Source: a virus
Direction: 5' to 3' (one strand)
IMG/VR virus record: IMGVR_UViG_3300028423_000904
Location: 27,540-91,539 of that record
DNA length: 64,000 nt
Of this stretch, positions 2,626 through 58,288 are shown in pieces; position 1 is the stretch's first letter; the number at the start of each line of letters is the position of its first letter. Below the pieces are notes generated by a model. It did no database searches. It worked only from the letters and a program-made list of their open reading frames with translations, and was not told the DNA's origin. The translations under genes and the position numbers were made by a program.

Positions 2626-3218
2626 GAAATGTAGCATCACTATTTGCGTTCATTGATATGCTCTTTAATTTCTTATTGGGGTTCACCTCATTGTTGATTC
2701 TCTCTTTTTTGATAATCAACCCGCCTGGCGACGTAGGAAAGATTGATCCCCCAGTAAAATTAATGGCCACAATTGAATGGGACGATGAAAGTTTGGCTGA
2801 TATAGATATATGGGTCAGAGGTTATGATGAAGAATGGGTTGGCTTTACAAATAAGGACGGTTCTTATGTTTCACTTGAACGTGATGACCGTGGACAACGC
2901 ACTGACATTATAACTGTCAATGGTGAAGACCAAATAATCATGCGAAATTTTGAAATTATGAATTTTACTGAATTACCAGCAGGAGAGTATTTTTTCAATA
3001 TACATCACTACAGTAATGGTGGTGATCTAGAGAGCCCAGATGTTGAAGTGAAAGTAACAGTTACCAATATGGATCCACACGAGCTTATATTCCAAGACAC
3101 AACGGTGTTGTCATTAAAAGAAGAAAAAACAGTTCTCTCATTTGTTGTTGATCATGAAGGTAAAATATCCGATATCCGGACCGATGTTAGACTGCCACAT
3201 AAAGAAATTGGAAATTAA
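2622..3218 (+). CDS. MotB/ExbD/TolR-like protein with one membrane anchor and an exported beta domain
   Basis: A 198-aa protein. Residues 8-33 form one membrane helix with an Asp near its start (FIDMLFNFLLGFTSLLIL), the arrangement of ExbD, TolR and MotB, where this Asp carries the proton. Residues 45-190 look like a beta-sandwich placed outside the inner membrane, not the OmpA-type peptidoglycan-binding domain of MotB. It is translationally coupled to the MotA-like gene (ATGA overlap), which supports a two-part complex. Confidence in the pairing is good; the periplasmic partner cannot be named. Confidence 0.65.
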   Translation: MRNVASLFAFIDMLFNFLLGFTSLLILSFLIINPPGDVGKIDPPVKLMATIEWDDESLADIDIWVRGYDEEWVGFTNKDGSYVSLERDDRGQRTDIITVNGEDQIIMRNFEIMNFTELPAGEYFFNIHHYSNGGDLESPDVEVKVTVTNMDPHELIFQDTTVLSLKEEKTVLSFVVDHEGKISDIRTDVRLPHKEIGN

Positions 3219-3220
3219 TT

Positions 3221-3664
3221 ATGAATTTAATACTTTCTCTGGTCGTTTTATTTGCAATTACGATAGCATTTTTGACATACCGTTCAGATTCTCATTGGTC
3301 ATTGAAATCTGTTGTCCTTCCAATTTTTTTGATTATAGCGTTATTAGGATATGAACATTATGTAGATCATTTAGGAAAGCCACTCCTTGAAAAGCCAAAG
3401 GGAGATTATGAATATCATCACCATGTTGTAACATCTGAGTCAAATATTATTGCTTGGGTAAGAAATCGCGACGGTGAGCATCGTTTATATAAATTTCCTT
3501 ACAATCGAGAAGATGCCAAAAAACTCGAGAAAGCCAAGCAAGAGACAAAACGAACGGGCAAGCCCGTTCGTTTGAAATTCAAAATGGGTGAAATAAGTCG
3601 AGTGAAAGACTCTGAAGAATGGGATATGCTTCCAAACAACCCAGTCAAACAGCCTGAAAATTAA
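3221..3664 (+). CDS. Small membrane protein, third gene of the Mot/Exb-like operon
   Basis: A 147-aa protein with two N-terminal hydrophobic helices (about residues 2-19 and 28-44) and a charged C-terminal part rich in Lys, Arg and Glu. No family recognised. It begins 2 nt after the MotB-like stop, with GGAAA upstream, so it is probably a component of the same membrane complex. Its coding sequence holds a perfect 12-bp inverted repeat at 3548-3573. The end overlaps the convergent small gene at 3661-3840. Confidence 0.65.
   Translation: MNLILSLVVLFAITIAFLTYRSDSHWSLKSVVLPIFLIIALLGYEHYVDHLGKPLLEKPKGDYEYHHHVVTSESNIIAWVRNRDGEHRLYKFPYNREDAKKLEKAKQETKRTGKPVRLKFKMGEISRVKDSEEWDMLPNNPVKQPEN
3548..3573. 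repeat. Perfect 12-bp inverted repeat inside a CDS
   Basis: Arms 3548-3559 and 3562-3573 are exactly complementary with a 2-nt centre. The GAACGGGC core recurs as a hairpin at 49134-49163. It may be an RNA hairpin or a protein site; no function is shown. Confidence 0.5.
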
Positions 3665-3840
3665 GCAGCAGAGTTCTGCACATCGGCCATCATAACCGGC
3701 GCCAGCCAGGGCGCAACCGTAATAAGTGCACATACCAGAACAGTGCTAGCCACCATACTGGGAACCAAAAGAGTCTCGCCGTTATTGATAATCATCAAGC
3801 CAGCCGGCGAGATATTGACTTCAGTATCTTTGATCTTCAT
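3661..3840 (-). CDS. Small predicted membrane protein under a strong sigma70-like promoter
   Basis: A 59-aa protein, the only minus-strand gene in the first 18 kb. Residues 1-27 are polar (starts MKIKDTEVNISPAG) and residues 28-50 form one hydrophobic helix. I chose the ATG at 3840 because GGAG lies 6 nt upstream; in-frame ATGs at 3846 and 3852 sit on or before that site. A TTGACA-N17-TATATT promoter lies immediately upstream, so it is probably expressed early, unlike the late genes around it. A small membrane protein made at infection onset could act in exclusion or lysis control, but that is a guess. Confidence 0.55.
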   Translation of the reverse strand: MKIKDTEVNISPAGLMIINNGETLLVPSMVASTVLVCALITVAPWLAPVMMADVQNSAA

Positions 3841-3869
3841 GTTCATCTCCATGCTTGTGTTGTATTTAC

Positions 3870-3898
3870 AATATAAGGTAAGCTGTCTTGGTTGTCAA
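3870..3898 (-). promoter_or_regulatory. Sigma70-like promoter for the minus-strand 59-aa gene
   Basis: On the minus strand TTGACA (3898-3893) is separated by 17 bp from TATATT (3875-3870). The predicted start is about 23 nt before the ATG. Confidence 0.75.
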
Positions 3899-3906
3899 GC
3901 TAAATA
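3899..3906 (+). promoter_or_regulatory. Late-type promoter box GCTAAATA, 5 nt before an ATG
   Basis: GCTAAATA ends exactly 5 nt before the ATG at 3912. It deviates from NATAAATA at the second base but shares the N5 spacing of five better matches in this window. Confidence 0.45.
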
Positions 3907-3911
3907 ATAGC

Positions 3912-4379
3912 ATGAGATGGTATCATTTAAATGAAGAATATGCAATCGATAATGTGGATGGTTGGGGCGCAGTCCCTAATAACCAGGAAGTAGATTATCT
4001 GGGATTGCGTGTTAAGATGACACCGCGAAATTTTATTAAATTGGCTGCACCACTAGGACAAGACCCTAGTGAAGAAATGATATCATACATTAAACAGAAC
4101 AAACCAATTGGCGCTCCGTTTTTAATAGTTTCAATACCAGCCGAATGGGAAGATGGCGACTTTAGCGAGCCTGCTCGTATATTAGGGCATGAGGGACGGA
4201 ATCGAATGACAACAATACAAGCGTTGCATGGTGATCATCCTCTTGAAGTTCATCTTTTCTTTACAGACGGTATGCGAGCACGTCATCTTACACCAGAAAT
4301 GATAGAGAATATGAATTCTGGTATGGTTAAAGAAAAGTCTCGTCGAGTCATACCAGGCCCGCTGTTTAAGGCTGTATAA
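3912..4379 (+). CDS. Conserved-looking phage protein of unknown function
   Basis: A 155-aa soluble protein starting MRWYHLNEEYAIDN. I did not recognise a fold. The middle reads APFLIVSIPAEWEDGD, then GHEGRNRMTTIQALHG and PLEVHLFF, an alternating beta/alpha pattern; the invariant-looking GHEGRNR could be a binding loop. A TTG 24 nt upstream is in frame, but it lies within the divergent promoter region, and the ATG sits 5 nt after a late-type box, so I take the ATG. It lies between the membrane operon and gp19. Confidence 0.6.
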   Translation: MRWYHLNEEYAIDNVDGWGAVPNNQEVDYLGLRVKMTPRNFIKLAAPLGQDPSEEMISYIKQNKPIGAPFLIVSIPAEWEDGDFSEPARILGHEGRNRMTTIQALHGDHPLEVHLFFTDGMRARHLTPEMIENMNSGMVKEKSRRVIPGPLFKAV

Positions 4380-4396
4380 TTTTTTTTGTCAAGATC

Positions 4397-4404
4397 GATA
4401 AATA
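4397..4404 (+). promoter_or_regulatory. Late promoter GATAAATA for gp19
   Basis: Full match to the T4-type late box, 34 nt before the gp19 ATG, with GAGGAG as ribosome site in between. Confidence 0.7.
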
Positions 4405-4438
4405 CTCATAACAGAGCGCATTATGAGGAGATAGACGA

Positions 4439-5041
4439 ATGGCAGTTCTTGATAAACTAAGTGTTCCAGTAAATGGAGAAACACAGGGCACACTGATGCC
4501 AAAGCTTCAGTATCGCTTCCGCGTCAACTTCATTAACATGGGACAAGGCGACACAAAAGTTGCAACCAATAACGTTGTCAGCGTCACACGTCCAAACGTT
4601 ACACACGATGAAGTCCTAGTGGATACATACAATTCACGTATCTATCTAGCTGGTAAACATGCATGGGAGCCAGTTACTATTGAACTACGTGACGATATTA
4701 CATCAGCAACCAGTGCATTGCTAGACCAGCAAGTTGCACGTCAAATCGACATGGCAAACCAGAGTTCACCACAAGCTGGTGTAAGCTATAAATTCCAGGT
4801 AGACATTGAAAACTTGAATGGTGCTAACCCAGATCCAGTCGTTCTTGATACTTGGAGACTGTATGGTTGCTATGTATCAAACCTAACATATAACGAGACA
4901 AACTACGGTTCAGGTGGTGAATACCAGACCATCTCAGTCCAACTTCGTTACGACAATGCTGCTCACGTTGTCGGTAGTGTTGATAACCTCAGCAACCCAA
5001 CATTCTCAGCAAATCCAAACGAACAAGACGCAGCTAACTAA
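4439..5041 (+). CDS. gp19: Tail tube protein gp19
   Basis: Major tail tube subunit. At 200 aa it is slightly longer than T4 gp19 (163 aa). It shows the usual layout: an early LMPKLQYRFRVNFIN strand, VTRPNVTHDEV, then W-EPVTIELRDD and a C-terminal YGSGGEYQTISVQLRYDNA. It has its own late promoter and a GAGGAG ribosome site, and a strong terminator follows, as expected for an abundant structural protein. Confidence 0.9.
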   Translation: MAVLDKLSVPVNGETQGTLMPKLQYRFRVNFINMGQGDTKVATNNVVSVTRPNVTHDEVLVDTYNSRIYLAGKHAWEPVTIELRDDITSATSALLDQQVARQIDMANQSSPQAGVSYKFQVDIENLNGANPDPVVLDTWRLYGCYVSNLTYNETNYGSGGEYQTISVQLRYDNAAHVVGSVDNLSNPTFSANPNEQDAAN

Positions 5042-5052
5042 TAGCACAAATT

Positions 5053-5100
5053 AACCGGCTAGGATGATCTCAGATGAGCTGCCAATCCTAGCCGGTTTTT
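5053..5100 (+). terminator. Strong terminator after gp19
   Basis: A 13-bp perfect stem (5053-5065 with 5085-5097) is followed by a T run. Confidence 0.85.
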
Positions 5101-5113
5101 CTAAGAGGTAAAA

Positions 5114-5743
5114 ATGGGTATTGTAAACTTTGCACAAAATACATTTAGAAGTGATAGTGACCAAATTCTTGTACCAAGACAGAGGTTCAATTTCACGTTG
5201 GTTTTGGATATATTTGATCGCAACCCCGAAGTTTTTACCCGCGTTTCAAACGTAAGTGCAGCATCATATAATATCGATTCACAGTTAATGAATCAATACA
5301 ACAAAAAACGAGTAGTACAAACTCGTCTGAATTATGAACCAATTCAGGTAGCATTTTACGATACATTTGATAGCCAGTGGCATACAATCATGACTGAATA
5401 TATGTCACATTACTACAATAACGGGGCTGGCGTCAACGTCAGAGAAAATCTTGAAGGATCCTCCACTGTTGATCCAAATTTTGAAACTGATCACGGATTC
5501 ACCCCAAATGCCGATCGTTATTTCTTTCCTCAGATTCGTATTATCCAGAATGGACATCGCAATAGCTATCGTGAAACTATATTAAAAAATCCACACATTA
5601 CAAACATGCAAGGCGATACATTAGATTATTCAGACAGCCAGCCTGTAATGTATACAGTTTCATTTCAACCAGAAAGTATTCAGACAAAAGAACATGCAGG
5701 GCAATTTGACTTACCATCATACCTTACAAGATCTGATTTCTGA
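5114..5743 (+). CDS. Second tail-tube-like structural protein
   Basis: A 209-aa protein placed directly after gp19. It has the same general plan: an N-terminal PRQRFNFTLVLDIF strand, NYEPIQVAFYDT, and a C-terminal SDSQPVMYTVSFQPESIQ. This resembles tube or tube-initiator proteins (gp19, gp54) of marine T4-like phages. I read it as a tube-family paralogue, perhaps the baseplate-proximal initiator or terminator ring. AGAGGT precedes the ATG. The exact T4 counterpart is not established. Confidence 0.6.
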   Translation: MGIVNFAQNTFRSDSDQILVPRQRFNFTLVLDIFDRNPEVFTRVSNVSAASYNIDSQLMNQYNKKRVVQTRLNYEPIQVAFYDTFDSQWHTIMTEYMSHYYNNGAGVNVRENLEGSSTVDPNFETDHGFTPNADRYFFPQIRIIQNGHRNSYRETILKNPHITNMQGDTLDYSDSQPVMYTVSFQPESIQTKEHAGQFDLPSYLTRSDF

Positions 5744-5746
5744 CTG

Positions 5747-5754
5747 AATAAATA
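5747..5754 (+). promoter_or_regulatory. Late promoter AATAAATA, 5 nt before the gp4 ATG
   Basis: The box ends 5 nt before the ATG at 5760. No purine-rich ribosome site fits between, so the mRNA would start at or next to the ATG. Confidence 0.6.
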
Positions 5755-5759
5755 AAATT

Positions 5760-6236
5760 ATGTCGAGTTATCAGCAAGGAAATTATCAACCCAAGAATAC
5801 TGAAAAATATCTTGGGAAGCATGTGCCCAAATATCGTTCAGGTTGGGAATTGCAATTTATGCGTATGTGCGACAATCATCCAAATGTTTTGGGATGGGCT
5901 AGCGAAAGCCATCGAATTCCATATATCAATCCTGTTACAGGAAAGCGCTCAACATATGTTCCGGATTTTTTTGTGATTTACGTTGATAAAGAAGGCAAGC
6001 GACATGCAGAAATGGTAGAAGTCAAACCCAGTAGTCATGTGGTTGGAAATGCAAAAGGTCAATATGACAAGGCTATGGCAGTTGTTAATGAAGCAAAATG
6101 GAAATATGCGAGACAGTGGTGCCAGCAGCAGGGAATTGGATTTCGTATTATAACTGAAAACGAAATATTTAACAAGCCACAAAAACCAAAAGCACGCCGT
6201 GGCCCAAGAAAAGTGGCTAAGAGGAAAAAAAGATGA
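5760..6236 (+). CDS. gp4: Head completion nuclease gp4
   Basis: A 158-aa protein of the T4 gp4 head-completion family, a TnsA-like PD-(D/E)XK nuclease fold that finishes packaged heads so tails can join. Visible signature: YRSGWELQFMRMCD, then W-ASESHRIPYINPVTGK, TYVPDFFV and AEMVEVKP (D then E-x-K of the nuclease site). The C-terminus is strongly basic (about 15 Lys/Arg in the last 25 residues). No ribosome site is visible before the ATG, which lies 5 nt after a late box. Confidence 0.85.
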   Translation: MSSYQQGNYQPKNTEKYLGKHVPKYRSGWELQFMRMCDNHPNVLGWASESHRIPYINPVTGKRSTYVPDFFVIYVDKEGKRHAEMVEVKPSSHVVGNAKGQYDKAMAVVNEAKWKYARQWCQQQGIGFRIITENEIFNKPQKPKARRGPRKVAKRKKR

Positions 6237-49209: not shown

Positions 49210-49238
49210 TTGACATCACTAGAGAAAAACCGTATATT
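49210..49238 (+). promoter_or_regulatory. Sigma70-like promoter that would give a leaderless uvsW mRNA
   Basis: TTGACA (49210-49215), 17-bp spacer, TATATT (49233-49238). The ATG at 49246 begins 8 nt after the box, that is, at the expected transcription start. No ribosome site lies between. Confidence 0.7.
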
Positions 49239-49245
49239 AGTCAGT

Positions 49246-50808
49246 ATGGAAGCTAAAATTGAATTATTGGATGAAGTGAATTGTAAAATTCACGGACTCA
49301 ACACCTCAACTCGAAGAAAATTATACGACCGGTTCAGCTTTATGCTGCCTCATGCCTATCATGTTCCTGCATTTAAAATGGGCAGGTGGGATGGAAAAAC
49401 AAATTTCTTTGCCATTGGTGGAAAAACATATACCAATCTACTAGAAGATATTTTGCCTATTCTCATTGAAGAAGGTTACGAAGTATCTCTGGTTGATAAT
49501 CGTATAAATTACGATATTGATTTTCATAAAATCGACCGAGAACATTTTAGTGAACGCAAATGGCCAGAGGGTCATCCTGTTGAGGGTGACCCTGTTATCT
49601 TGAGAGATTACCAAGTTGAAATTATTAATAATTTCCTTGAAAATCAGAAAGCATGTCAAGAAGTTGCAACTGGCGCTGGTAAAACTCTAATCACTGCCGC
49701 ACTCAGTGACCTTGTTCAAAGAAGCTTTACTGATGAACAAATGGTCATGTATAAATTACAAACGGGGCGTGACGGCGGTGCAAGAACCATTGTTATTGTT
49801 CCTAACAAAGGACTTGTTACACAAACAGAAGACGACTATCGCAATCTTGGACTTGATGTTGGAGTGTATTATGGTGACAGAAAAGAATTAAACTGCACAC
49901 ATACAATTTGCACTTGGCAAAGTCTCGAAATAATCCAAAAGAACTTCCGTGAAGGCAAAAGTGATATGAGTCTTGAAGATTTTGCCAATGGTGTTATGGC
50001 GGTTATTGTAGACGAAGCTCACGGTGCAAAAGCAGATGTCCTTAAAAAAATGCTTATAGGGCCGTTTCGCAATGTTCCTATTCGATGGGGCTTGACAGGA
50101 ACAATACCTTCAGAAGAACATGCTGCGATAGGTATTCATGTTGGTCTGGGACCTGTTGTTGGTAACCTAGCAGCAAAAACACTACAAGATGATGGGGTGC
50201 TTTCAAACTGTCATGTTGATATTATCCAAATGCAGGATAATGTTTTTTATGATAACTATCAGAGTGAATTGTCATACCTGACCACAGATCCTGACAGGCT
50301 GGATTACATGGCAGGACTAATCACAGAAATGTCAAAATCTGGAAATACGCTTGTCTTGGTCGATCGTGTTAAAGCCGGCAAGGGATTGCTAGAACGCCTG
50401 CCTGAAGACAGAACTGTTTTCATCAGTGGCGAAATGAAAAACGAACAGAGACGAGATCATTATAAAGAAGTTTCAAGTAGTGATAATAAAATCATTATTG
50501 CAACATATGGTGGTGCTGCCGTGGGTATTAATGTTCCGAGAATTTTTAACATGGTGATGGTTGAACCTGGAAAAAGTTTTGTGCGTGTTATCCAGAGTAT
50601 TGGTCGCGGATTGAGAAGAGCAAAGGACAAAGACTTTGTTCATATATATGACATAACTTCTAGTGCCAAATTTAGCAAACGACATTTGACTGAAAGAAAA
50701 AAGTTTTACCGAAAGGCACAATATCCATTTAAGATTACAAAAGTTAAATGGCGTGAAGAAATGAACATGATACAAGATTTGTTCAAAAAATTAAATAAAA
50801 AGGAATGA
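49246..50808 (+). CDS. uvsW: UvsW-type SF2 DNA/RNA helicase
   Basis: A 520-aa helicase (T4 UvsW: 587 aa). It unwinds branched DNA and R-loops and helps switch from origin- to recombination-dependent replication. The N-terminal double-stranded-DNA-recognition domain (FKMGRWDGKTNFF) precedes motif I TGAGKT (142-147), DEAH box (256-259), motif III GLTGT and motif VI QSIGRGLRRAKD. I use the ATG at 49246, not the in-frame TTG that coincides with the -35 box. It appears to be leaderless. Confidence 0.9.
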   Translation: MEAKIELLDEVNCKIHGLNTSTRRKLYDRFSFMLPHAYHVPAFKMGRWDGKTNFFAIGGKTYTNLLEDILPILIEEGYEVSLVDNRINYDIDFHKIDREHFSERKWPEGHPVEGDPVILRDYQVEIINNFLENQKACQEVATGAGKTLITAALSDLVQRSFTDEQMVMYKLQTGRDGGARTIVIVPNKGLVTQTEDDYRNLGLDVGVYYGDRKELNCTHTICTWQSLEIIQKNFREGKSDMSLEDFANGVMAVIVDEAHGAKADVLKKMLIGPFRNVPIRWGLTGTIPSEEHAAIGIHVGLGPVVGNLAAKTLQDDGVLSNCHVDIIQMQDNVFYDNYQSELSYLTTDPDRLDYMAGLITEMSKSGNTLVLVDRVKAGKGLLERLPEDRTVFISGEMKNEQRRDHYKEVSSSDNKIIIATYGGAAVGINVPRIFNMVMVEPGKSFVRVIQSIGRGLRRAKDKDFVHIYDITSSAKFSKRHLTERKKFYRKAQYPFKITKVKWREEMNMIQDLFKKLNKKE

Positions 50809-50811
50809 TAC

Positions 50812-51018
50812 ATGAATAAAAATTTAATTGACGACATAGTGTATTTTTTAGAAAAAGACACACTTAAATCATATCAATCAGCACAAATTTTAATAAATGC
50901 TGAAGTGGAACGGAAATTTCTTTTGGAGCATGGTATCGACGTAGGTGAAATGCCCAGCGAGGATATCAAAAAACATATAGAGATTTCCAAAGAACATTTT
51001 TTCAGGAGTAACGATTGA
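50812..51018 (+). CDS. 68-aa helical protein after uvsW
   Basis: Starts MNKNLIDDIVYFLEKDTLKS and is entirely helical and acidic. It begins 3 nt after uvsW, so co-transcription is likely. Its stop overlaps the TTG start of the next gene. No family recognised. Confidence 0.6.
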   Translation: MNKNLIDDIVYFLEKDTLKSYQSAQILINAEVERKFLLEHGIDVGEMPSEDIKKHIEISKEHFFRSND

Positions 51019-51515
51019 AAGTATTAACAAGTGAAAATCAGACATATGAATTGGATTTTGTACCAGAAGAAATTGATGATATACGATACTGTGTCCTAGA
51101 TTATAGTGATAGGCAAAATCCTGACTATTTCTTTATGCCCTTGGTTTTTCTGGAAATTTTTAATGCGCCAGCGGCTGTATTACAAGTAGGTGAACATACC
51201 TTCAAAATGCCTATTGACTGGAGTCTGATTATTTGTGACAGTGAGATTGGAGAGCCTGAAGTGGTTCCTATCACATCATTGAATGATAGGGGATTTACGG
51301 CATTCACTATGAATCCTATCACTAGCTATATGCCTAGTTTTCAACCGATTGAAATTGTAAATGTGTATAGCGAAGTAAAATGGCATTTTCCTAAACTCAA
51401 GCAAGGACATCTATTAGCAGTGCCACTAAGTGATGGTGAAGACCAACACTGTGCATTTTTTGTTAAAGAAACCAACAAGATTCCTGATGTATTGGATATT
51501 GGTGAGCTCTGGTAA
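51015..51515 (+). CDS. Conserved T4-like marine phage protein, unknown function, TTG start
   Basis: A 166-aa protein of a family that I recall from marine T4-like phages: FFMPLVFLEIFNAPAAVLQV, MPIDWSLIICDSEIGEPEV, TSLNDRGFTAFTMNPIT, VKWHFPKLKQGHLLAVPLSD, AFFVKETNKIPDVLDIGELW. The start is TTG at 51015, supported by CAGGAG 6 nt upstream and by TTGA overlap with the preceding stop. Function unknown. Confidence 0.7.
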   Translation: MKVLTSENQTYELDFVPEEIDDIRYCVLDYSDRQNPDYFFMPLVFLEIFNAPAAVLQVGEHTFKMPIDWSLIICDSEIGEPEVVPITSLNDRGFTAFTMNPITSYMPSFQPIEIVNVYSEVKWHFPKLKQGHLLAVPLSDGEDQHCAFFVKETNKIPDVLDIGELW

Positions 51516-51524
51516 TGACAGAAA

Positions 51525-51803
51525 ATGAATTCAACTCTACACAATATATCACCTGATAAAATTGCAAGAGATATTATCGGAGTTCAGCCTGTAACAAAAC
51601 CTACTGGCCTAATATTTGGTCTTCATTCTCGTTACGGCCATGTTACAATATGTGGAAATAGATCTACGTCAATCTCGATTGCATCTTTAAGTTGGATTAG
51701 GAGACAATTATCATGCCGACAATTAAAGAAGAAATGGCGGCGCTTGATCGTCGAGACTTTTCATGGTATGGAAATCTGTCCGAAGATGAACAGAAAAGTT
51801 TAA
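51525..51803 (+). CDS. Small frame with a major-capsid-protein-like motif
   Basis: A 92-codon frame starting MNSTLHNISPDKIARD. Residues 14-42 read RDIIGVQPVTKPTGLIFGLH then SRYG, closely resembling the T4 gp23 segment with GVQPMNSPTGQVFAL. Its last 30 codons overlap the next gene in another frame, so a truncated product or gene fragment is likely. No good ribosome site. The motif is unlikely to occur by chance, but whether the frame is expressed is open. Confidence 0.45.
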   Translation: MNSTLHNISPDKIARDIIGVQPVTKPTGLIFGLHSRYGHVTICGNRSTSISIASLSWIRRQLSCRQLKKKWRRLIVETFHGMEICPKMNRKV

Positions 51804-52180
51804 GTATGTGGGTTCTCATGCGTTACTGTTCAAGCACGAGCAGTAAAGTAGACGAGATCAACCAGCATTACTTGATAATGACCAATGAACTTGTGAATGT
51901 TCATTTTAATGATCTCCGTCATTATCCAGATATGCAATGGCGCTTGATGCAATGCGTTGGCATTGGCAGCAACCAATTTCATGCCTGGATCAAACCCATG
52001 AAAAGAAAAAAAGCACGAACTGGCAATGCAAAGCTTACTGAGTTTTACCTGGGTTTGTATCCACATCTTAAAGATGACGAAGTAGCCATGGCATTGGATT
52101 CCATGGATCAAGATGAAATCAAGTCTCTGCTCGAACAAGCTGGAGTTCCCAAGAACAAAGTAAAAGACTATCTCAAATGA
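51713..52180 (+). CDS. gp62: Probable clamp-loader small subunit gp62
   Basis: A 155-aa protein whose layout fits what I recall of small clamp-loader subunits of marine T4-like phages: MPTIKEEMAALDRRDFSWYG, LMRYCSSTSS, YLIMTNELVNVHFNDL, RHYPDMQW, WIKPMKRKK and a helical end with LYPHLKDDEVAMA. It would work with gp44, which is not in this window. T4 gp62 itself (187 aa) is only distantly similar, so the call rests on memory of the family. Coupled to the next gene by ATGA. Confidence 0.55.
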   Translation: MPTIKEEMAALDRRDFSWYGNLSEDEQKSLSMWVLMRYCSSTSSKVDEINQHYLIMTNELVNVHFNDLRHYPDMQWRLMQCVGIGSNQFHAWIKPMKRKKARTGNAKLTEFYLGLYPHLKDDEVAMALDSMDQDEIKSLLEQAGVPKNKVKDYLK

Positions 52181-52845
52181 ACTTTCGTTGTGAATATTGT
52201 AAAAAAGAGTTCAAACGAGAATCCACTCTTACTAGGCACATGTGTCGTGACAAGAAGCGTTGGCTACAAAAAGAAGACCGCCATGTTCGTTTAGGTCTCA
52301 AGCTTTTTAATGACTGGTATCGTATTGCGATGGGGGCAAACGGTAACAAGACATATGAAGATTTTGTTCGTAGCCGTTATTATGGTGCATTTGTGCGTTT
52401 TGGTTTATATATACTAGAAACTCGGGTATTGGCTCCTGAGAGATATCTGCGTTGGTTGATCGAGAAACAGAAGCCAGTAGATCTCTGGTGCAAGGATTCA
52501 GTATACAACGAATATCTAGCCGAGCAAAGCAAGCGAGAAACAGCTGAGAGAGCGTTAGAACGCTTTGTGCTACATGCAGAAACATGGAGTGAACGAACAG
52601 GTTTTCATTGGAGCGAATATTGGAATCAGGTCAAACCACATGTGTTGGTTAATGACATCAAGATGGGTAAAATATCTCCTTGGGTATTCCTGGGATATAC
52701 TCAAGCTAAACAACGCCTAGAAGACTTGCCGGGTGAAATGTTAAATGACATAGCAAGTACCATTGACTTGCCATTTTGGAAGCGTAAAATTGATGTAAAC
52801 CAACCCACAGTCGAGTGGATAGAAAGCATATTAGAATCTTCATAA
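52177..52845 (+). CDS. Zinc-finger protein of unknown function
   Basis: A 222-aa protein whose first 20 residues form a C2H2-type finger (NFRCEYCKKEFKRESTLTRH, then MC). The rest is helical (LGLKLFNDWYRIAMG; RSRYYGAFVRFGLYILETR), with Trp-rich segments. The same arrangement occurs in marine T4-like phages next to the clamp loader. It may bind DNA and act in replication or late transcription; unproven. Confidence 0.65.
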   Translation: MNFRCEYCKKEFKRESTLTRHMCRDKKRWLQKEDRHVRLGLKLFNDWYRIAMGANGNKTYEDFVRSRYYGAFVRFGLYILETRVLAPERYLRWLIEKQKPVDLWCKDSVYNEYLAEQSKRETAERALERFVLHAETWSERTGFHWSEYWNQVKPHVLVNDIKMGKISPWVFLGYTQAKQRLEDLPGEMLNDIASTIDLPFWKRKIDVNQPTVEWIESILESS

Positions 52846-52855
52846 AGGAAAAGAG

Positions 52856-53098
52856 ATGATAATCACATCGGAAAAACGCAGTTATGTAATTGGTCTCAAG
52901 AGCAAGCTCTATGATCGTGTAACCAGAGAATGTTCTGAAATGAGCCGAGCTGATTTGCAAAGGTATATTAATGACAATTTTGAAAAAGCAAACGCACTGA
53001 AGTCAAAAACCAATTCAGGGGCCTGGAGACAAGGCAACATGCATCATGACAAAGCCAAGGTAGCCATAATTGAAATGGACAAAAGACGGTCATCATGA
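52856..53098 (+). CDS. 80-aa phage protein, unknown function
   Basis: Small basic, mainly helical protein (MIITSEKRSYVIGLKSKLYD; DLQRYINDNFEKANALKSK). AAAGGAAAAG precedes the ATG. Its stop overlaps the start of the DnaE-like gene (ATGA), so they are probably made together and could interact. Confidence 0.6.
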   Translation: MIITSEKRSYVIGLKSKLYDRVTRECSEMSRADLQRYINDNFEKANALKSKTNSGAWRQGNMHHDKAKVAIIEMDKRRSS

Positions 53099-53670
53099 AG
53101 CCTGTTGTAACTGATATTGATATCGATGTTCCTGATCGCGAACAAGTATTAGAGCTGTTCCCTCATACAATTGCGAGCAACGGAAAGCGAAAGCACAATA
53201 CAGGAGTGTATTTTCATCGTGTTCCGGAAAATCCATTTAACGGACGTTGCAGTATTGATTACCAGGAGGCAGAGGATTTAGGCTATTTCAAAATCGATAT
53301 TCTAAATGTGAGTATATACAAGAATGTTCGAAATGAAGAACATTTAAATGCATTGTTGGAAAAAGATCCTCCTTGGGAATTGCTTGAGGAAAAGGATTTT
53401 TGTGACATGGTTTTTCATATGCGAGGACATCACGATATCTGTCGGAAGATGCAACCTCGAAACCTAACACAACTTGCCGCTGTGCTAGCTATGATTCGTC
53501 CAGCAAAGCGGCATTTGATCGGCAGTGACTGGGACACTGTTATGAAAAATATCTGGACCAAGCCAAAATCAGGAGAATATGCATTCAAAAAGAGCCATGC
53601 TATTTCATACGCGATGGCCGTAAAGTTGCATATGAATCTTTTGATTGAGCAAATTAGCCAAGGAAAATAA
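53095..53670 (+). CDS. Miniature DnaE (Pol III alpha)-like protein
   Basis: A 191-aa protein with key C-family polymerase palm and finger motifs in order: VTDIDIDVPDRE (residues 5-15, like the catalytic P-D-x-D-x-D-F of DnaE), KHNTGVYF (33-40), AEDLGYFKIDILN (59-71, like LGLxKxDFLGL), LAAVLAMIRPAKR (127-139, like the ALYRPGP finger) and FKKSHAISYA (164-173, like FNKSHAAAYA). DnaE has about 1100 residues; PHP, tau-binding and OB parts are absent. D7, D9 and D11 are candidates for two of the catalytic acids; the third is unclear. It may be a reduced polymerase or a regulator. Confidence 0.6.
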   Translation: MKPVVTDIDIDVPDREQVLELFPHTIASNGKRKHNTGVYFHRVPENPFNGRCSIDYQEAEDLGYFKIDILNVSIYKNVRNEEHLNALLEKDPPWELLEEKDFCDMVFHMRGHHDICRKMQPRNLTQLAAVLAMIRPAKRHLIGSDWDTVMKNIWTKPKSGEYAFKKSHAISYAMAVKLHMNLLIEQISQGK

Positions 53671-54360
53671 ATGCATCCACTAGAACAGTTTTTATCTCAA
53701 GGATACGGTGTCTGGAAAGATCTATTACCAAAAGCCAGTATATATGAGTTAATATATAATATCGATTTGTATGACTATCCTGACAGGGGTCACGATATAA
53801 ATGGACAATATCATGAAAAACGAACCACTGACATTGAGTGGGGTAGTTATTGGACAATCCCGCTCAATAACAATCCTAGAGTGGACGAGATCCGAAATAT
53901 TACTGACAGGATTGCGTCTAAAATTTTACTGGAGCCCGTCTTCTATCATTCAGATATCAGTGTCCTCACCACTTCCTCACATTCCATCAGGCCTCATGTC
54001 GACACGCCACATCGTCACGAACCTTGGTCCAATAAAATCTCCAGGACGCTGGGTATCCAATTGGCTATACCATTGCAAGATCATGGAAGCCTGAGTGGCA
54101 CCACTGCATTTCTACCCAATAGCCATCGTCGTCATTGGGATATAAGAGATTGTTACGCAGGAAAATATGATCAGGAGTTTCTAGAAAACTATCATCAACC
54201 CGAGATTCATTTCGGTGATTTTTTAATGTGGGACGCAAGAACATTGCATTCAGCAATGCCAAACAAAGGCCATTCAAAAAGATACATGCTTCTTTTCAAT
54301 TATCTTGAAAAATCAATTGTTACAGATGTAATGGACTATGAAGCTAGTCTGATCGCCTAA
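53671..54360 (+). CDS. 2-oxoglutarate/Fe(II)-dependent oxygenase (PhyH-like)
   Basis: A 229-aa protein with a double-stranded beta-helix iron site: H109-V-D111 (IRPHVDTPH), H193 (RTLHSAMPN) and a 2OG-binding Arg (R204 in HSKRYMLLF). A conserved SGTTAFLPNSHRRHW loop lies between. T4-like marine phages carry several such oxygenases; substrates may be nucleotides, bases, proteins or small metabolites. It follows the DnaE-like gene directly and its end overlaps the convergent gene by 17 nt. Confidence 0.8.
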   Translation: MHPLEQFLSQGYGVWKDLLPKASIYELIYNIDLYDYPDRGHDINGQYHEKRTTDIEWGSYWTIPLNNNPRVDEIRNITDRIASKILLEPVFYHSDISVLTTSSHSIRPHVDTPHRHEPWSNKISRTLGIQLAIPLQDHGSLSGTTAFLPNSHRRHWDIRDCYAGKYDQEFLENYHQPEIHFGDFLMWDARTLHSAMPNKGHSKRYMLLFNYLEKSIVTDVMDYEASLIA

Positions 54361-54724
54361 TCAATTGAACGTTTTTGCGTTTGACTCGTTTTTGCATGAT
54401 ATCTTTGAGACATACACTTGGCCCATATTTAATTTCAAAATCCTTGATATTAAATGTTCGCAAACAATCTTTAAACGGCTGAAATTTCCTACCAAGAATA
54501 ATGTTAATAGGAATCATGCGGTTTGTCTCCCACCACCATTCTGCACCAAATTCCAGAAATAGGCGACGCAATTCAGGTGATTTGATTTCTTCATAAACAT
54601 ACATGCTGATCAGATTTGCATCTTGATTCTGTATGATACCTAAATATTCATTCTTTCCATAAGCAGCAACGGTAAGGAATGGATATTCTTCAAGTAATTG
54701 TTCTAGTTTGTTGTTTCCTGCCAT
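54344..54724 (-). CDS. Conserved T4-like phage protein on the minus strand
   Basis: A 126-aa protein, the only minus-strand gene right of the array. Start at 54724 (MAGNNKLEQLLEEYPFL): this ATG is exactly 5 nt after a perfect TATAAATA, whereas the longer in-frame start would lie before the promoter. It contains FLTVAAYGKNEYLGIIQN, MYVYEEIKSPELRRLFLEFG, EWWWETNRMIPINI and a basic end. I recall this family from marine T4-like phages without a function. Confidence 0.7.
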   Translation of the reverse strand: MAGNNKLEQLLEEYPFLTVAAYGKNEYLGIIQNQDANLISMYVYEEIKSPELRRLFLEFGAEWWWETNRMIPINIILGRKFQPFKDCLRTFNIKDFEIKYGPSVCLKDIMQKRVKRKNVQLIRRSD

Positions 54725-54729
54725 GCACC

Positions 54730-54737
54730 TATTTATA
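54730..54737 (-). promoter_or_regulatory. Late promoter TATAAATA, minus strand, 5 nt before ATG
   Basis: Perfect match. Divergent from the late promoter at 54761. Confidence 0.7.
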
Positions 54738-54760
54738 CGCATGACGTTTTGGTGATCGAC

Positions 54761-54768
54761 GATAAATA
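54761..54768 (+). promoter_or_regulatory. Late promoter GATAAATA, 5 nt before ATG
   Basis: Box, 5-nt spacer ttaac and start are identical to those at 10908-10923. Confidence 0.7.
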
Positions 54769-54773
54769 TTAAC

Positions 54774-55211
54774 ATGACTGTATTTGTATATCACACACCC
54801 CAAGTTGCTAGCCCGTCAGAAACTCGCCGCGGCGGCACTTATCGTATCAGTAGCAATGATGATAATCCAATTAAAATTACACGTGGCTGGGACAAAGTCA
54901 TGTATTTTGCTTTTCGTGATTATACACAGCGTCCTTTTTTTCTAACAGGAAGAACGGTTACAGCTCGACTCTACAATACTGAAAATGTCGAAGTTTGGAC
55001 TGGTGAAATGTTACCAGATGCTATTGTAGATGGTGCAGCCAGTCTTGTAATGCCCAAAGTCCAGACTGAAACTTTACAACCTGGGTTGTATAGTTTGGTT
55101 GTTGAGTATAGTGATGATTTTGGAAGAACATTGCTAGCACACACAACACACAGTCTCAACCGCCTTGTTGTTGAAATCTTGGACCAGACAACAGTGAATC
55201 TTAACATCTGA
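54774..55211 (+). CDS. Probable structural protein with an Ig-like beta domain
   Basis: A 145-aa beta-rich protein (MTVFVYHTPQVASPSETRRG; RGWDKVMYFAFRDYTQRPFF; GRTVTARLYNTENVEVWTG; LVVEYSDDFGRTLLAHTTHS). The strand pattern suggests an immunoglobulin-like or BppU-like fold used in baseplates and fibres. Expressed from a late promoter, apparently leaderless. No family named. Confidence 0.6.
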   Translation: MTVFVYHTPQVASPSETRRGGTYRISSNDDNPIKITRGWDKVMYFAFRDYTQRPFFLTGRTVTARLYNTENVEVWTGEMLPDAIVDGAASLVMPKVQTETLQPGLYSLVVEYSDDFGRTLLAHTTHSLNRLVVEILDQTTVNLNI

Positions 55212-55246: not shown

Positions 55247-56263
55247 ATGCACTTTTTTGTTGAGTTTGTCCGTAGTCGTGTTCCGGCTAATTGGCACCAG
55301 AACAGCACTGGCTGGATTTCTGGCAATTGTCCTATGTGCGTAATTAATGGTGAACCACGTCCTGACAAGTTTGGACGTGGCGGGTTTCTGTTTGGCCAGG
55401 ATGAGTGGCGTTATCATTGTTTTAATTGCAAATACGTTGCGGGCTGGAAATCTGGCGAACATATGTCATCCAATGTCAAGAAACTGCTTAAACAACTTGG
55501 CATGGATGAAGCTGAAGTGCAGAGGGCAGCTCTTGAATTGCTGCGTGAAGAAGAAACAACGCAGATGCTTAATCCAGAGCCTGCTGGTCCGCCAGTGTAT
55601 CGCCCGGATTGGCCTGAAATAGATTTGCCCGAAGGATCAGAATTTATACATGATATAAATCCTGAAACAGCACATGCGAATTTCCATGAAGGCCTTGTTA
55701 TGCTGCAAGAGCGTGGGTTGATACCACACTGGACAGATTGGGCCTATACGAGCAAAGAATTCAAATATCGCAAGCGAATGATATTGCCTTATCGTTACAA
55801 AGGAAAAATCGTAGGATATAACTCAAGATACATAGGAGACCCGCCCAAAGGAACGCCCAAATATCTCGTGACAAAGCCACCCAATTATGTGTTCAATTTG
55901 GATCGACAAAAACCAGATCGAAATATCGTGGTCGTGGTAGAAGGAGATTTAGATGCCATAAGTATTGATGGTGTTTCAGTAGGAACAAATACTATAAGTG
56001 ATGAAAAAGCTAGCTTGATCAAACAGCTCAACAAACGTGTGATTGTTTTGCCAGATGCTGATAGATCAGGTAATTCGCTTATCGAGCCTGCAATACAATA
56101 TGGTTGGAATGTTGCATTTCCTGAATGGATGGAATATTACAAGGATGCAAATTTAGCCTGTCAGAAGTATGGACGAACGTTTGTTTTGCGGTCTATCATT
56201 TCGAGTGCAACAAGCAATTCAACAAAAATAAGAGTATTAGCTAAAAAGTATTTGCAAGGTTAA
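55247..56263 (+). CDS. gp61: DNA primase gp61
   Basis: A 338-aa primase (T4 gp61: 342 aa) that makes RNA primers with helicase gp41. The N-terminal zinc finger has C28-x2-C31 and H57-C58-x2-C61 (NCPMC and YHCFNC). The Toprim core has VVVVEGDLDAIS (E232, D234) and VLPDADRSG (D270, D272). It is encoded in the same direction as gp41 with two small genes between. No ribosome site is obvious before the ATG. Confidence 0.9.
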   Translation: MHFFVEFVRSRVPANWHQNSTGWISGNCPMCVINGEPRPDKFGRGGFLFGQDEWRYHCFNCKYVAGWKSGEHMSSNVKKLLKQLGMDEAEVQRAALELLREEETTQMLNPEPAGPPVYRPDWPEIDLPEGSEFIHDINPETAHANFHEGLVMLQERGLIPHWTDWAYTSKEFKYRKRMILPYRYKGKIVGYNSRYIGDPPKGTPKYLVTKPPNYVFNLDRQKPDRNIVVVVEGDLDAISIDGVSVGTNTISDEKASLIKQLNKRVIVLPDADRSGNSLIEPAIQYGWNVAFPEWMEYYKDANLACQKYGRTFVLRSIISSATSNSTKIRVLAKKYLQG

Positions 56264-56609: not shown

Positions 56610-56919
56610 CGATTTAAAAGAACACAGTATAAAAAAAATAAAAAGACGGCTTCCAAAAAATTCTAAAAATTATAATTATACCTTTACTGTTCGTCCAATC
56701 AGAGCAATTATACCCAGAAAGGGTTTTTCGGGTTCTATTATTTTCCCCGGACAAATGTTCTGGCAAGTAAAATTAACCACGATGGTTATTAAAAATAATC
56801 AAGAACCTTTTAAGGCCAATTCAATATATTATCAATCTGTTTGTGTTAATTTGACTGATGAAGAATATTTGATGGCCAAAATAATTGGTGATATAGAGTT
56901 TGTAGGTGAATATGGCTGA
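56602..56919 (+). CDS. 105-aa basic protein, unknown function
   Basis: Starts MLNDLKEHSIKKIKRRLPKN, strongly basic at the N-terminus, then beta strands (YTFTVRPIRAIIPRKG; MFWQVKLTTMVIKNNQEPF). Overlaps both neighbours, and the AT-rich codon use is stronger than in primase and helicase. It could bind nucleic acid; no family recognised. Confidence 0.55.
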   Translation: MLNDLKEHSIKKIKRRLPKNSKNYNYTFTVRPIRAIIPRKGFSGSIIFPGQMFWQVKLTTMVIKNNQEPFKANSIYYQSVCVNLTDEEYLMAKIIGDIEFVGEYG

Positions 56920-58288
56920 GGAATATAATACGGAATTACAGAGATTATATTTGGAGTTTCTCACAAGTGACCATGAACTTTTTGTTCGATGTAATAGTAT
57001 TCTGGATGAAAATTATTTTGACCGTAATTTGAGAGACAGTGTGAAGTTTTTGCGCGAGTATGTAGATGAATATGGCGCAGTCCCTGAACTCAAGCAGATA
57101 AAAGCCAAGACTGGTCTTGACTTGCAAGACATTGGACAAGCAAGCAAAGAACACAGGAAATGGTTTCTTGACGACTTTGAAAAATTTTGTAGACACAAAG
57201 CCATTGAAGCTGCGATCTTGCAGTCAACCGATAAATTGGAACGCAAAGAATACGGTGCAGTTGAAGAGTTGGTTAAAAACGCAGTTCAAATCGGACTAGC
57301 AAAAGAACTTGGAACCAATTATTGGGAAGATCCTGCAACACGTTTGCAGCGTATTATTGAACGCAAAGGCGGAACCAGCACTGGCTGGACCACAGTAGAC
57401 TATTATCTCTATGGAGGATTTAACCGCGGCGAACTTAATATCTTTGCTGGTGGTAGTGGTGCAGGTAAAAGTCTTTTCTTGCAAAACCTAGCCCTTAATT
57501 GGGTTGAAAAGGGATTTAATGTTGTTTATGTCAGTCTAGAACTTAGTGAAGATCTTTGTAGTATGCGTCTTGACAGTATGCTCACGGGTTATACCACGAA
57601 AGAACTACTCAAAAACATTGACGATGTAACACTCAAGGTCAAAATGAAAGGAAAGAAATCTGGTAGCCTGCAAATCGTGCAATTGCCCAACGGTATTAAT
57701 GTAAACGACCTCAGAGCATATATTAAAGAATACCAGATACAAAATAATATAACAGTTGATGCTATTCTGGTTGACTATCTTGACCTCATGATGCCAGCAA
57801 AAGCAAAAGTAAGTGCCGATAATGTGTTCCTTAAAGATAAACACGTATCAGAAGAATTGCGCAACTTTGCAATGGAAGGCGATTACTTGTTTGCAACAGC
57901 CAGCCAGCTTAACCGCGGCGCGGTTGACGAAGTTGAATTTGATCATAGTCATATTGCAGGTGGTTTGAGTAAAATTCAAACAGCTGATAATGTTATTGGT
58001 ATTTTTTCAAGCCGGGCAATGAGAGAACGCGGCCGGGTGCAAATTCAGTTCATGAAAACTCGTAGTTCCAGTGGCGTTGGTCAGAAAATTGATTTGGGAT
58101 TCGATATTGATAGTTTGAGAATACGCGATCTAGAAGAGGATGAAGAAGATGCAGAAACAGCAACAACCAATTCTCTTTATGACAAATTGTCTAAAAACCC
58201 AGCGGAAAAAACAGAACGTGCAGATAATACCGAGAAGGCTATAACCAATGGTGACAAGCTCAAGGCCATCTTGCGCCGTTCCGAATGA
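56912..58288 (+). CDS. gp41: Replicative helicase gp41 (DnaB-like)
   Basis: A 458-aa hexameric 5'-3' helicase that works with primase gp61. The N-terminal helical domain (1-130) is followed by a RecA-like core with Walker A GGSGAGKS (180-187), Walker B AILVDYLDLM and FATASQLNRGA, and FMKTRSSSGVG near the C-terminus. I use ATG 56912; a GTG two codons earlier is possible. T4 gp41 has 475 aa. Confidence 0.92.
   Translation: MAEEYNTELQRLYLEFLTSDHELFVRCNSILDENYFDRNLRDSVKFLREYVDEYGAVPELKQIKAKTGLDLQDIGQASKEHRKWFLDDFEKFCRHKAIEAAILQSTDKLERKEYGAVEELVKNAVQIGLAKELGTNYWEDPATRLQRIIERKGGTSTGWTTVDYYLYGGFNRGELNIFAGGSGAGKSLFLQNLALNWVEKGFNVVYVSLELSEDLCSMRLDSMLTGYTTKELLKNIDDVTLKVKMKGKKSGSLQIVQLPNGINVNDLRAYIKEYQIQNNITVDAILVDYLDLMMPAKAKVSADNVFLKDKHVSEELRNFAMEGDYLFATASQLNRGAVDEVEFDHSHIAGGLSKIQTADNVIGIFSSRAMRERGRVQIQFMKTRSSSGVGQKIDLGFDIDSLRIRDLEEDEEDAETATTNSLYDKLSKNPAEKTERADNTEKAITNGDKLKAILRRSE

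Follow-up and report, generated by a model that had tools for sequence, protein, structure and literature searches.

A marine member of a predicted two-gene minimal DNA polymerase III alpha subunit in large T4-like phages

Bacterial family C polymerases (DnaE/PolC; PF07733 and PF17657) consist of one chain of about 1100 aa. In cyanobacteria, DnaE is encoded by two unlinked genes (DnaE-n and DnaE-c) whose chains are rejoined by a split intein. Two-gene forms also occur in phages. Tenacibaculum phage Larrie (ON950054.1) encodes a full-size DnaE in two genes (2646-4193 and 4196-6226), and its N-terminal piece ends in a tail of about 50 aa that looks intein-like by eye and gives no Pfam intein match. 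In Microbacterium phage Hiddenleaf (2474-3511 and 3522-5825) the break in a two-gene DnaE separates the PHP domain from the polymerase part. Iyer et al. (2021, PMC7824862) described a split minimal Pol III alpha from jumbo phages of group 2.2, where it co-occurs with a family-B polymerase; a truncated alpha subunit and a DnaQ-like epsilon had been noted in earlier genome papers (PMC5259590, PMC6102473). Literature searches returned no experimental test of the split minimal Pol III.

The window analysed here, a stretch of 64,000 nucleotides, covers bases 27540-91539 of a 91.5-kb uncultivated virus fragment and encodes one half of a new marine member of the two-gene mini-DnaE that large T4-like phages had been predicted to carry in 2021. 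The gene in question, gene B, is an intact ORF with an ATG start (53095-53670, + strand, 191 aa). The original prediction of a 191-aa protein with DnaE motifs in order is borne out by its membership of phrog_11778 ('DNA polymerase'; E 1.6e-61) and its match to phrog_405, the full-length phage DnaE family (E 3.8e-9). Phrog_11778 is also the C-terminal, Mg2+/template-binding half of the split Pol III of Iyer et al., and gene B is a direct family member. A profile-profile comparison in hhalign with five full-length phage DnaE proteins gave probability 92.7 and E 4.4e-7. A profile built from 60 diverse members matched PDB Pol III alpha chains and aligned to M. tuberculosis DnaE1 in three collinear segments, at 412-424, 568-664 and 773-788. 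The Pfam finger model PF17657 gave 15.5 bits, below its curated cut-off of 22.

The predicted fold points in the same direction. An AlphaFold2 model computed from window and viral-contig sequences only reached pLDDT 93, and its leading Foldseek matches in the PDB were all Pol III alpha (best E 4.2e-4, TM ~0.4), the only chains matched at a significant level; the modest TM-scores arise because each model spans only part of DnaE. In a viral structure library, the named leading matches were annotated phage DNA polymerases. Neither of the two outcomes set to refute the original prediction, a missing profile match to DnaE or a predicted fold unlike the Pol III palm, was observed. Members of the family turned up in 94 phage records and on over 500 IMG/VR contigs. 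The family is under purifying selection, with dN/dS of 0.04-0.06 for two closely related pairs; comparisons of the window with its nearest relatives are saturated in dS. Based on the PHROG, profile-profile and dN/dS results, chance resemblance to DnaE is ruled out. A cellular origin was likewise rejected, as 84,980 genomes yielded only 13 matches, all on MAG contigs and mostly short. These contigs carry labels such as Natrialbaceae, Pacearchaeota and Pelagibacter, among others, and probably represent mis-binned phage DNA.

Within gene B, four elements (D7/D9/D11, K66-I-D68, I134-R135-P136 and F164-K-K-S-H168) keep the DnaE order and were placed by alignment as follows:

53113-53127, + strand: DIDID (D7, D9, D11), corresponding to DnaE PDIDID with the first two catalytic Asp (E. 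coli D401/D403 by motif), from the alignment to M. tuberculosis DnaE1 412-424
53290-53298, + strand: K66-I-D68, corresponding to DnaE KxDxLG with the third catalytic Asp (E. coli D555 by motif), from DnaE alignments
53497-53508, + strand: R135-P136-A-K138, corresponding to the DnaE finger RPGP, from DnaE alignments
53584-53610, + strand: FKKSHAISY (K165, H168, Y172), corresponding to DnaE NKSHSxxYxL and aligned to DnaE 773-788

Among the 60 diverse members, D7, D9, D11, K66, D68, R135, P136, K138, K165 and H168 do not vary, and Y172 is kept in at least 90%. The three catalytic Asp of a Pol-beta-like palm are present as D7, D9 and D68 in the alignment with DnaE, and by sequence and predicted fold gene B carries the metal-binding carboxylates of that palm together with two finger elements. 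The palm and finger motifs originally proposed are confirmed, the fingers only in part: the palm Asp and the RP and KSH elements are there, but the finger motifs YQEQ and RRAMGKK, both invariant in full-length phage DnaE, are absent, and the thumb region is reduced from about 120 DnaE residues between DIDID and the GxHxxGV segment to about 22. The GS nucleotide-binding motif is absent from the gene B protein as well.

That motif lies in a second gene. A PF07733 search of carrier genomes recovered an ORF of about 175 aa, gene A, in all seven complete phages searched (model positions ~16-98). It corresponds to phrog_11127, clears the PF07733 cut-off and aligns to E. coli DnaE 320-392; its profile matches phage DnaE with E 4.7e-10, and its AlphaFold2 model (pLDDT 93) retrieves Pol III alpha in Foldseek. 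The C-terminus of gene A reads WGVGRGSSVASYVLFLIGxHxVxS..YxLDxxEFLK-stop, the DnaE segment directly before PDIDID, so that the split point between genes A and B falls at DnaE FL(N/K)/PDIDID. GxGRGSS is invariant in gene A. In carriers, by sequence and predicted fold, gene A supplies the preceding palm part with the GRGS nucleotide-binding loop. In the gene A model alone the GRGS segment has no assigned beta strand, while the gene B model alone holds the DIDID and KxD strands. Jointly, the two genes encode a palm that lacks the PHP, thumb, HhH and OB parts and most of the fingers, and no Pfam matches to PHP, thumb, complete fingers, HhH or OB were obtained for either. The parts through which DnaE is known to bind its partners (PHP for epsilon, and the C-terminal tau and clamp parts) are missing from both halves. 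As the GS motif sits in a separate gene, gene B is half of a split enzyme and not the complete, smallest C-family polymerase first suggested.

The two genes travel together. All eight of the complete named phages that were examined carry both, as do seven of the eight A-bearing IMG/VR contigs above 225 kb, and the genus counts of gene A and gene B matches agree in the phage collection. The exception to the pairing is IMGVR_UViG_3300035698_035310 (359 kb), where gene A is present and gene B was not detected. The two genes lie far apart, at 44.5 and 13.4 kb in 121Q, at 97 and 321 kb in Phosso and about 14 kb from each other in RAS14. In this last phage (Stenotrophomonas phage RAS14, OP752703.1) both genes are diverged; gene A (189807-190358) is annotated as a hypothetical protein and gene B (204467-205045) was recognised by profile only. 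No fused A+B gene was encountered among 157 gene A and about 180 gene B loci.

In these carriers, the two-protein architecture, the distance between the genes and the co-occurring family-B polymerase are those of the split Pol III of Iyer et al. (PMC7824862; phrog_11127 and phrog_11778). The family-B polymerase (PF00136, gp43) was found in seven complete carrier phages and one contig of the window's lineage; the fragment that contains the window gave no match. A DnaQ-like exonuclease (PF00929) was considered as a feature conserved in every carrier and rejected, since it occurs in 6 of 8 complete carrier phages and was not seen in the window's lineage. Bacterial DnaE/PolC shares with the phage pair the order GRGS (gene A), DIDID, KxD, RP and KSH and is the only group whose chains match the predicted fold; it differs in being one chain, whereas the predicted phage polymerase comprises two (191 and about 175 aa) and lacks the PHP, thumb, YQEQ/RRAMGKK fingers, HhH and OB of the bacterial enzyme. 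The DnaE of Larrie is broken at the same place in the palm (FLN/PDID), but its genes are adjacent and its PHP and C-terminal domains are kept. The cyanobacterial DnaE likewise occupies two unlinked genes with a different split point and, unlike in that system, no intein sequence flanks the phage gene A or gene B junctions.

In contrast to the members described by Iyer et al., the window's lineage is uncultivated and its N-terminal partner was not found in the available fragments. The lineage forms a clade with 68-76% identity in gene B, and the window's gene B is about 50% identical to those of Phosso and PA5oct. Four syntenic records, including the window's own, together span about -143 to +56 kb around gene B. 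These are fragments that end before the region closes, and profile searches of the 91.5-kb record and its syntenic fragments (about 200 kb) did not recover gene A. An additional viral scan gave no gene A of this lineage, and across about 150 gene A loci no shared gene exceeds 62% identity to the clade. In phages with both genes, gene A often lies tens to hundreds of kb downstream, and its absence here may therefore reflect a gap in coverage.

Gene B sits inside a replication cluster in which a UvsW helicase is followed by small and mid-sized genes, gene B and then a primase and a DnaB/gp41-type helicase. This order is shared wholly or partly with the annotated giant phages RaK2, 121Q, Paride, Phosso, SCTP-2 and Vibrio 2.275, and most of the neighbours recur beside gene B in 87-170 environmental loci. 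The members in the window are:

49210-50808, + strand: UvsW-type helicase (phrog_16, E 3.2e-69), conserved upstream member, near gene B in 100 loci
51015-51515, + strand: 166-aa conserved neighbour (phrog_11279)
51713-52180, + strand: 155-aa conserved neighbour (phrog_11758)
52177-52845, + strand: 222-aa protein with an N-terminal C2H2 zinc-finger-like motif (phrog_11058), near-universal gene B neighbour, 166 loci
52856-53098, + strand: lineage-specific 80-aa ORF, overlapping gene B by ATGA (53095-53098)
53671-54360: PhyH/2OG-Fe(II) dioxygenase-like gene that immediately follows gene B, an insertion seen in the window's lineage only
54344-54775, - strand: 143-aa ORF, near-universal downstream of gene B (170 loci) and the cluster's only opposite-strand gene
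55247-56263, + strand: primase (T4 gp61-like), positioned as the annotated primases of RaK2, 121Q, Paride and Phosso, homologues in 120 loci
56906-58288, + strand: replicative helicase (T4 gp41/DnaB-like), positioned as the annotated helicases, homologues in 87 loci

The proposed coupling of gene B to the 80-aa gene stands as far as the ATGA overlap is concerned, and a 4-base overlap with some upstream gene is seen in 75 of 159 loci. As a conserved partner the 80-aa gene was rejected, since its homologues are limited to a few loci of the window's lineage and the genes upstream of gene B fall into many unrelated clusters. The 222-aa phrog_11058 protein, which nearly always adjoins gene B in diverse phages, is a candidate functional partner.

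The family and fold matches, the conserved catalytic residues, the pairing of A and B in carriers and this setting together make it rather likely that gene B encodes the C-terminal subunit of a minimal family C Pol III alpha made of two proteins, accessory to gp43 in large T4-like phages. Genes A and B are predicted to associate, with the WGxGRGSS segment of A joining the sheet of B, and a Pol-beta type active site would form at their interface, where the GRGS of A could bind the dNTP triphosphate and the three Asp of B hold the metals. The thumb-less heterodimer would then add nucleotides at replication or recombination intermediates, perhaps near the gp61/gp41/UvsW machinery. Lacking a thumb, it would probably work distributively over short stretches or repair ends, and with YQEQ and RRAMGKK also missing from gene B, processive synthesis is doubtful. 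Somewhat more tentatively, A and B may constitute an active two-chain family-C polymerase without a thumb. It would be the smallest functional core of Pol III and would operate alongside a family-B replicase. In the marine lineage of the window, B may have a different N-terminal partner, or none.

Alternatively, the pair could be an active nucleotidyltransferase that is not a templated DNA polymerase and extends ends or short primers, either in DNA or RNA repair or to lengthen primers that gp43 then takes over. Many nucleotidyltransferases that need no template share the Pol-beta fold, and the retention of the catalytic triad and the GS motif alongside the loss of the thumb and most template- or duplex-contacting finger elements fits such an activity. 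Invariant RP and KSH polymerase-finger elements and the position of gene B inside a DNA replication cluster argue against it, making this the less probable function, if one to be taken seriously. Gene B, with or without A, might also be a subunit with a structural or regulatory role and no catalysis of its own, in contact with DNA or with the replisome of phage or host, for instance as a mimic of host Pol III. Its very small size, the missing thumb and the lack of a detected gene A in about 200 kb of the window's lineage would be compatible with this role. It is improbable, however, given that the catalytic residues are invariant in both halves across very diverged members and that the domains through which DnaE binds its partners (PHP; C-terminal tau and clamp parts) are gone. 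The invariance of these residues also disfavours the catalytically altered DNA-binding or host-decoy form that had been raised in the original prediction.

A decaying remnant of a full-length dnaE, to which a length of about one sixth of normal and the one known A-only contig could point, is very improbable and was discarded because of the selection and conservation seen in the family: size (about 185-215 aa) and domain limits are constant in some 180 loci, the gene is never fused or longer, and dN/dS of 0.04-0.06 with an invariant active site already contradicts decay.

If A and B rebuild a working Pol III active site in the manner of the favoured two-protein enzyme, the pair would set the minimum for a catalytic core among family-C polymerases. 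Such a core would be usable for testing the contributions of thumb and fingers. Why hundreds of giant T4-like phages retain another polymerase in addition to gp43 would then also need explaining.
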